This document shows, one piece after another, positions 14,868-16,052 of a stretch of 64,000 bases of DNA. The stretch is from an uncultured Allomuricauda sp. Lineage in GTDB: Bacteria > Bacteroidota > Bacteroidia > Flavobacteriales > Flavobacteriaceae. The DNA lies in assembly GCF_947495325.1 (NCBI RefSeq), contig NZ_CANLYK010000002.1, positions 806,001 to 870,000 on the forward strand, given 5' to 3'. How positions within the stretch are numbered: position 1 is the first letter of the stretch; each line of letters begins with the position of its first letter. A program made the translations under genes and the position numbers. Under the pieces are notes generated by a model that saw nothing but the letters and a program-made list of their open reading frames with translations, was not told the origin of the DNA and searched no databases.

Positions 14868-14920
14868 TCACTTATCGGTCTCGTATAACTTTCAATTGCG
14901 GTTATACATTGTTGGGCAAT
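14868..14920 (+). repeat. Left boundary repeat of cassette-like unit
   Basis: A 53-base element that begins CACTTATCGGTC and ends GTTGGGCAAT. It is matched in inverted orientation by the element at 15899-15954 (GATAAGTG at its outer end, ATTGCCTAAC at its inner end). Inside is a hairpin with perfect arms GTATAAC (14883-14889) and GTTATAC (14901-14907). The inner GTTGGGC fits the GTTRRRY core of integron attC sites, but no integrase is present in the window. Confidence 0.6.
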
Positions 14921-14934
14921 GTTCTTCATTTAAA

Positions 14935-15162
14935 TTAATTTTTAATTGATCGTTTTAAATATGATGTTGAATTTTTCGAAATATCCTCAGCCAATTCAAT
15001 AATATATGATTCTCCATGGTTCAAAAACTTTTCTATTTCTTTCTGATTTAATAATATTTTTAATTCGTACAATGCTATCGAACCACATATGACTTCTAAC
15101 CTGTATGACTCATTATTACTGTAAAGTGTATAACACCAATCTTTTTCTAGTAAAACTTTCAT
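14935..15162 (-). CDS. Hypothetical protein inside repeat-bounded cassette
   Basis: A 75-aa protein of unknown function, starting at ATG 15162 (an in-frame TTG lies just upstream). It is acidic to neutral, without signal or membrane segment. It is the second gene of a two-gene minus-strand unit, 13 bases after the 236-aa ORF. Base composition is more A+T-rich than in neighbouring genes. A toxin-antitoxin or immunity-like pair is conceivable, but nothing in the residues identifies one. Confidence 0.5.
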   Translation of the reverse strand: MKVLLEKDWCYTLYSNNESYRLEVICGSIALYELKILLNQKEIEKFLNHGESYIIELAEDISKNSTSYLKRSIKN

Positions 15163-15175
15163 CAATAATTTGAAA

Positions 15176-15886
15176 TTAATTTAGCACAATATTGTAAGGT
15201 TGTACATTTTGTAACTCTGCCCGTAGTTCTAAAAGAACATCAACACAATTTTGATAGTATTCTTTTTCATTGTTGTCCACTTCTTGCTCTAAGCATTTCA
15301 TATGCATCTCCATAATGTATTTGAACAACATTTCATAATTGCCCGAGTCTGACAGCTTGGAAATTATAATTTTTTGAATCCAAAATACATTGCCCCATAA
15401 TGGCTTAGCATTATTTATTTCTTTGTTTACTGCCGCTTCCAAATGGTGGATGGTTTTGTATCGAGTTAAGGATTTTAGAACAATGCTTTCTACAAATTTT
15501 TGGATTCTATCTAAAAATAATTCTATATCCTTCTGAATTTCCGAAATGGGAATAAGTCTTATATCTTCCAAAAAGCCACTAAAGGTTTGAATAGTATAAT
15601 TTTCTCCTCGCGAATCCTGAAGTAACTTTCGTCTTTTATTATTAATATAGACCTCTACATCGTTTATTCTCTTTCTTGCAATAAAAAGAATAACTAGATT
15701 GTGTCTTTTGGAGTCTGATTGTACACTTACATGAACCAAGTCTTTTTTTAAATCATTGGTCTTTTTGAATTGAATGATAAAATTATCTATATCCGATATG
15801 TCTTGATTTCTTTCCGCGACAAAACCTCTTTGTTCGAAAATTGATATTAGATAATCTTGTATTCTTTTGTATTTAGTATTTTCCAT
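15176..15886 (-). CDS. Hypothetical protein inside repeat-bounded cassette
   Basis: A 236-aa predicted soluble protein. The N-terminal half looks alpha/beta (YLISIFEQRGFVAERNQD, then HVSVQSDSKRHNLVILFIARK), loosely reminiscent of nuclease-like or DUF domains; the C-terminal half is helical. I recognise no catalytic motif. The gene is strongly A+T-rich (23% G+C in one 60-base line counted by hand) and lies within the inverted repeats at 14868-14920 and 15899-15954, as expected for an acquired accessory gene. Confidence 0.55.
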   Translation of the reverse strand: MENTKYKRIQDYLISIFEQRGFVAERNQDISDIDNFIIQFKKTNDLKKDLVHVSVQSDSKRHNLVILFIARKRINDVEVYINNKRRKLLQDSRGENYTIQTFSGFLEDIRLIPISEIQKDIELFLDRIQKFVESIVLKSLTRYKTIHHLEAAVNKEINNAKPLWGNVFWIQKIIISKLSDSGNYEMLFKYIMEMHMKCLEQEVDNNEKEYYQNCVDVLLELRAELQNVQPYNIVLN

Positions 15887-15898
15887 TTATTTGGAAAT

Positions 15899-15954
15899 AT
15901 TGCCTAACGTCAAGCTAAGGATTGTTTTAATTGTCTTTAGCGACTGATAAGTGA
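15899..15954 (-). repeat. Right boundary repeat of cassette-like unit
   Basis: A 56-base inverted partner of the element at 14868-14920. The inner end is ATTGCCTAAC and the outer end GACTGATAAGTGA. An internal imperfect hairpin pairs GCTAAG (15914-15919) with CTTTAGC (15935-15941). GCCTAAC fits the RYYYAAC core of attC-type sites. The two elements keep the same ends and an internal hairpin at the same place while the hairpin sequence itself differs, which argues for selection on structure. Confidence 0.6.
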
Positions 15955-16052
15955 AGTTCGGGAAATTTAGCCTAAGATTCAAAAGGAATTTAGTGTATAA
16001 ATGCCTTGGATTGATGAATCATTATGCTTGGGGTAAACCTAAAATGGATACC

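Follow-up and report, generated by a model that had tools for sequence, protein, structure and literature searches.

The unit at positions 14868–15954 of the window (the whole 64,000-nucleotide stretch analysed, from an uncultured Allomuricauda sp.) is very probably an integron cassette with two orphan open reading frames (ORFs), seated in one of many dispersed, vertically inherited docking sites and loaded there by a tyrosine recombinase. Sequence comparison identifies the two unknown genes as a mobile integron gene cassette, and shows its breakpoints, a site found both empty and filled, differing cargo, covariation in the docking hairpin and an integron in the same genome. The initial annotation had suggested that it could be a non-autonomous mobile cassette of an undescribed type. 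Non-autonomous and mobile it is, but the kind is a known one: the unit is an integron cassette rather than an undescribed mobile unit because the same cassette sits inside the integron array of a relative. It stands out by its dispersed docking site and by the type of integrase involved.

The sequence CACTTATCNGTC occurs exactly twice in the window, at 14869–14880 on the plus strand and 15942–15953 on the minus strand, as does GTTRGGCAAT (14911–14920, plus; 15899–15908, minus), and hairpins are present at 14883–14907 and 15914–15941. The ends had been described as shared, inverted and each bearing an internal hairpin. The hairpins and the paired motifs on opposite strands are there, but the two ends are non-equivalent and are not two copies of one element. 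Once mismatches are tolerated, the window shows no significant excess of either end motif (6 matches where 10.2 are expected, and 17 where 11.5 are), and taken by itself it is therefore weak evidence. Across the whole 4.1-Mb genome, CACTTATCNGTC is found exactly 9 times and its reversed-pattern control not at all; one of the nine (L002) is without partner or hairpin. The extended core of the right end, CCGWACTTCACTTATC, is found 16 times with ≤1 mismatch, and never when reversed. The search proposed with the initial annotation came out in its favour, the motif recurring at many sites that enclose different genes.

Read on the minus strand, the unit begins with a docking half-site (CCGAACTT CACTTATC AGTC, hairpin A, TTGAC), followed by G|TTAGGCAAT and a 236-aa ORF, and continues with a 76-aa ORF, ATTGCCCAAC, a hairpin, GAGACC and GATAAGTG. 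The right end joins the 5′ part of a docking site to the cassette 5′ arm. It consists of an upstream part of about 57 bp (15962–16018; consensus ..ATCCATCAATTT....TTGAATCTTAA..AAATT), weakly to moderately conserved by column over 64 sites and in alignment A1; the core CCGAACTT with the 5′ strand of the outer stem, CACTTATC (15946–15961; 16 own-genome copies, none in the control, and 64 sites); hairpin A (GCTAAAGACAATTAAAACAATCCTTAGC; 15914–15941; covariation over 55 sites); and the crossover base G (complement C–G at 15909 in plus-strand numbering) with the cassette 5′ arm R′, GTTAGGCAAT (15899–15909), placed by the breakpoint relative to the array copy and by arm matching. The left end is the cassette attC, that is, its 3′ arm and hairpin, followed by the last 8 bp of the docking site. 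Here are found the 3′ arm R″, ATTGCCCAAC (14911–14920; motif search, arm matching and array comparison); the attC hairpin L″/L′ (14883–14907; sequence, circle folds and array comparison), with a loop shorter than in the array copy; the spacer GAGACC before the crossover (14877–14882; sequence and array comparison); and the 3′ strand of the outer stem, GATAAGTG (14869–14876), which stands directly after hairpin A in empty sites.

The two ORFs (236 aa, 15176–15886; 76 aa, 14935–15165; both on the minus strand) form accessory cargo between housekeeping genes, as the initial annotation had it, and both remain without a family above cut-off in Pfam or NCBIfam and without a PADLOC match below E 0.05. 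Both have copies in the array of the relative, that of the 236-aa ORF being of identical length. The 236-aa ORF has relatives in 2 of 299 Flavobacteriaceae genomes, namely the genome under study and one with a weak partial match, and its single-sequence structure prediction was unusable (pLDDT 45.7). An Rfam scan of the unit and seven related loci gave no credible match.

The identity of the cassette comes from a close relative (G024) with a chromosomal integron array. The window cassette is found inside this array at 99.8% identity over 1009 bp, and the identity ends at the G|TT core on both sides, bearing out the earlier suggestion that the inner cores are attC-like. At the 5′ break the array reads ..CCTCTCG|TTAGGCAATATT and the window ..TTGACG|TTAGGCAATATT; at the 3′ break the array reads ..AGACCG|TTGTACATAAC and the window ..GAGACCG|ATAAGTG. 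The first array cassette of G024 is, moreover, identical over 865+1 nt (866) to a cassette docked in its own genome, again with breaks at G|TT, and one cassette docked in the genome under study matches an array cassette of G282, a genome of another genus, at 88% identity over 838 bp. In the terms used in excerpts of PMC2727003, the cassettes have complementary R″ and R′ arms, an L″/L′ stem, an unpaired spacer and a variable terminal part. Arms R″ and R′ of one cassette match at a mean of 9.0 of 11 positions, against 7.5 with the arms of other cassettes, and a score of at least 9/11 is reached by 28 of 36 cassettes compared with 7% of such controls; the remaining 8 units score lower, some of them through selection of a chance end motif. 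Joined into circles, most of 29 cassettes (7 of 36 units were excluded by rule, for an arm match below 8 or a tail ≥360 nt) form long hairpins with an asymmetric spacer at the junction.

A search with the attC start motif led to a cluster beside a tyrosine recombinase in the genome under study. The earlier statement that no integrase or transposase is present holds for the surroundings of the unit, but not for the genome: a 355-aa recombinase is divergent from a one-way array with nine attC motifs (≤2 mismatches) and an attI-like region, the latter assigned from position and repeats. The recombinase and array of G024 are arranged in the same way. A covariance model built from 45 array attCs found attC in 35 of 36 genomes of the genus and in 43 of the 59 searched.

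The 111 array attCs, which come from 19 of the 20 loci fetched, were selected with a stem score that counts A·C pairs as 0.7 at any position; general pairing is thus built into the set, but the concentration of changes at positions 7 and 12 is not. Pairing along their L″/L′ stem is 93–100%, the exceptions being both ends and three positions. Two of these, 7 and 12, carry an A-to-G (or C-to-T) change without an indel in 86% and 93%, respectively, and the third, position 8, is affected in 25%; the changes at positions 7 and 12 make G·T in the bottom strand and A·C in the top. No extrahelical base, seen as a length difference, is found in the first 18 bp of L″/L′ in these 111 attCs, and the two G·T positions are found instead. 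Greater stability of the bottom strand is found in 100 of the 111 array attCs and in 25 of 29 docked ones. In canonical attCs, strand choice is made through extrahelical bases, according to excerpts of PMC2727003.

The 355-aa integrase scores 185 bits with TIGR02249 (cut-off 265) and 202 bits with NF040815 (XerA_Arch; cut-off 220), and the TIGR02249 cut-off is reached in none of 59 relatives. Aligned with IntI4 (2a3v), it gives a two-piece match in which chain residues 211–244 of 2a3v are without counterpart, and this IntI-specific insertion is found in 0 of 23 aligned homologues. Residues R213, K238, H302, R305, H328 and Y337, the catalytic residues of the family, are invariant in all 23. A structure model (pLDDT 84.4, pTM 0.58) has XerA and IntI4 as its best structural matches, and the best sequence match in the PDB is 4a8e. 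Because the integrase is without the IntI-specific additional domain, we describe the system of this genome as integron-like and not as a canonical IntI integron. The protein resembles Xer recombinases in its matches to NF040815 and Xer models, but it heads an attC array and is longer by about 85 residues at its N terminus. Many of the integrases (L210:5404–6471, alignment A3) carry such an extra N-terminal domain of about 85 residues, with a W-S..K.W..PD motif; a 282-aa integrase in G004 (L224:9445–10293), also beside attC motifs, is without it.

Related integrases accompany attC arrays in other Bacteroidota. Among 296 Bacteroidota genomes, a homologue (E≤1e-40) is found in 93, the attC motif in 49 and both in 34 (odds ratio 7.2, P=3e-9, with the overlap counted by hand), and in at least 13 of these 34, by raw count among the matches listed, a homologue lies within 10 kb of an attC. 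The association is not a simple one, however, since 15 of the 49 attC genomes have no homologue at E≤1e-40, and 59 of the 93 homologue genomes have no attC motif. Integrase-like hits are found, on a rough reading of the matches listed, in G010, G013, G019 and G021, where the patterns used did not find the docking hairpin; G010 also has no attC by the covariance model.

The docking site is an element of about 125 bp with a covarying hairpin and an outer stem CACTTATC/GATAAGTG. When empty, it consists of this outer stem, an asymmetric internal loop and an inner stem with loop ATTAAAAC. Over 64 sites (loop motif with ≤1 mismatch), column conservation extends about 57 bp past CACTTATC; beyond GATAAGTG, on the other side, no conservation was seen by eye. 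Allowing ≤2 mismatches, 72 sites are found in ten genomes of the genus, a few of them probably degenerate, and the genome under study has 15. In the 55 sites of alignment A1 (8 of 63 were excluded by eye as degenerate or redundant), the nine pairs of hairpin A are paired in 91.5% of cells. Double changes occupy 95 cells, compared with 37.6 after shuffling and no more than 27 when the pairing is slid; the 6 pairs that show a double change are no more than shuffling gives. The outer stem compensates across the whole length of a cassette: CACGTATC is found with GATACGTG (the empty site of G004, a filled site of G024, and L366), CTTCGTTATC with GATAACGA (L364) and TTCGTTAAC with GTTAACGAA (L336). 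This covariation is imperfect, in that other sites with CACGTATC have GATAAGTG or no mate that was found. Six distinct sites are empty, with GATAAGTG or GATACGTG standing immediately after hairpin A; the bottom strand folds better than the top in 5 of these 6. L362 and L373 look empty as well.

A docking-type hairpin is found in 25 of 36 genomes of the genus (hand count, with the hairpin-less hits L018 and L020 dropped), and a separate search adds one in G008; none of 23 genomes of the same order gave a match. A 16-mer scan of named genomes returned 75 exact matches in 73 stretches. The 39 that pass the hairpin test are all in Flagellimonas or Allomuricauda records. Of the 36 that fail, many lie in unrelated phyla and look like chance, and a few in Flagellimonas or Allomuricauda look like degenerate sites. 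No credible docking motif was found near the 20 best integrase matches.

The docking sites appear from these comparisons to be scattered and vertically inherited, with cassettes that differ between relatives. The site in the window lies between trx and tonB-like genes, a junction whose comparison among relatives had been suggested in the initial annotation. The trx gene was found in 44 of 59 genomes, and 30 loci of the genus were read. In 27 of these the two genes abut or overlap (≤22 bp between match ends) with no insert, and the inserts in the other three, the genome under study, G024 and G009, are mutually non-matching. Eight docking sites of the genome under study have their upstream flank in common with G024 (89–97% identity over 500 bp); the first 640 nt of cargo match at two and differ at six, and at four of these six the far flank also aligns, at 94–95%. 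An empty site in G004 is orthologous to filled sites in the genome under study (G000) and in G009, G022 and G024, and one empty site in G035 is orthologous to a filled site in G004. With both flanks conserved around differing cargo, homologous recombination through these flanks between strains could explain some of the differences. As a general account it is unlikely, since it does not explain the two array/docked pairs, whose copies share the exact cassette, with no flank and with breaks at G|TT.

The inverted repeats at the outer ends and the dispersal of the end motif would also suit a non-autonomous transposon with passenger genes, moved by a transposase acting in trans. We consider this highly improbable: the site stays put while its cargo changes, the breaks fall at G|TT, and empty sites keep both strands of the outer stem. 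The G|TT breaks led to rejection of a transposon origin for the cassette move, yet the empty docking site, being absent from 27 of 30 trx/tonB loci, could be such an element.

Integron cassettes reportedly insert at attG sites, as described by Loot et al. in 2024. The unit may resemble such secondary-site insertions in being a cassette in the genome outside attI and attC: its docking site differs from the attI-like region, though it folds like an attC. Ordinary low-specificity insertion would make the end motifs a mere preferred target sequence. That IntI can insert cassettes at places in a genome other than attC or attI is known from excerpts of PMC2426708, PMC12444791 and PMC12901181. The target here, however, is no broadly distributed, weakly specific sequence but a dedicated, repeated and structured element of about 125 bp with covarying stems, kept at orthologous places, inherited, found empty and refilled, and this explanation is accordingly quite improbable. 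The unit is likewise similar to a CALIN or single attC lacking integrase, in that an attC-bearing cassette has no integrase adjacent, but differs in being bounded by a dedicated docking site, usually with one cassette per site.

Loading of an integron cassette into a docking site would proceed as follows. A circular cassette would carry its attC, with arms R″ and R′, an asymmetric spacer and a long L″/L′ stem, and a tyrosine recombinase would exchange strands between the two folded sites beside their common G. A site reading ..TTAATC G|ATAAGTG and a circle reading ..GAGACC G|TTRRRY would yield docking half-site, cassette, attC and GATAAGTG, which is the observed order. Both partners fold as hairpins with an outer stem, an asymmetric loop and an inner stem, so that docking would work like attC × attC recombination. 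The bottom strands presumably react, cassette exchange is probably still going on, and the integrase without the IntI-specific insertion in the same genome would be the docking enzyme. Against this explanation, the docking site is unlike the attI-like region, and the four genomes named above (G010, G013, G019 and G021) have, on the same rough reading, integrase-like hits but no docking hairpin found by the patterns used.

It is possible, if doubtful, that docking is instead carried out by XerC/XerD or another unrecognised recombinase, the integron merely supplying attC-bearing cassettes. Both G035 and G022 have filled docking sites, yet no integron integrase of the insert-less type was found in them: only two recombinases of G035 exceed the Pfam cut-off, both Xer-like, and those of G022 are Xer-like or longer and phage-like (423–462 aa). 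These genomes argue against loading by the integrase, although loss of the integrase after docking would account for them. An orthologous docking site also lies near xerD in G000, G035 and G022, but this neighbourhood is one inherited locus with a core gene; the pairing of xerD with this site as intI and attI was rejected on that ground. The array/docked pairs, furthermore, break at the same G|TT core as array recombination, as loading by the integron integrase would have it.

A sedentary chromosomal integron (intI, attI and attC array) shares with the present system a tyrosine recombinase divergent from a one-way array of short attC-bearing cassettes, R″ and R′ boxes, the G|TT crossover, bottom-strand bias and cassette exchange. 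Unlike it, the integrase here is without the IntI additional domain, the attC carries two conserved G·T pairs and is free of extrahelical bases over its first 18 bp, and cassettes are found also in dispersed docking sites. We lean slightly towards a wider reading, in which a lineage of Bacteroidota integrons has an integrase that lacks the additional domain and reads G·T wobble pairs in place of extrahelical bases, and which in Flagellimonas/Allomuricauda may form a distributed integron: in addition to the array, inherited hairpin docking sites spread over the chromosome would each accept a cassette and exchange it.

The presence of integrons in Bacteroidota is not new, because it has been reported before (excerpts of PMC8618304, PMC2426708 and PMC9024848). 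For Bacteroidetes, the IntegronFinder 2.0 paper mentions only cassette-free integrases from earlier work, and one complete integron, in Salinibacter ruber (PMC9024848). What look new are the type of integrase, its spread and the docking sites; among the titles and abstract openings of the open-licence literature, no paper was found on insert-less Bacteroidota integrons or dispersed docking sites. If the wider reading is true, a large gene-cassette system of Bacteroidota has been overlooked because integrases were selected or defined by the additional domain: an integron survey chose its integrases by this domain (PMC2426708, in excerpt), and it has been called defining (PMC9668308, in excerpt). 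One would then have to revise the idea that integron activity requires this domain, and a natural enzyme without the known reading element would allow tests of how a recombinase reads a folded attC. Dispersed docking sites would also allow cassettes to be inserted and maintained at a distance from the array.

Several sites have features of their own. The docking site of L042, L112 and L126, the one near xerD, lies between NDH-2-like and alpha-glucosidase-like genes (by eye), and its cargo differs among G000, G035 and G022. An extra stem of about 20–25 nt is found between the outer stem and hairpin A in L046 (G000:C1:1031844), L017 (G018:C1:212447) and L373. The tandem sites L040, L041 and L052 each have a half-site of their own, and flank sequence common to the sites of L040 and L052 looks like the result of a duplication of the site. 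One docked cassette of the tandem group (L041, G000:C2:920449–924301) encodes a 560-aa protein that by eye looks like an ATPase with a Toprim-like end, possibly a defence gene. Outside both the array and the docking sites found, L225 (G000:C1:419555) is a second attC in the genome under study, followed by a further cassette start. In the Flavobacteriaceae genome G282 (L212–L214, G282:C1) the attC start motif occurs 60 times, with a good part of the copies in long arrays, which amounts to a superintegron-like load.
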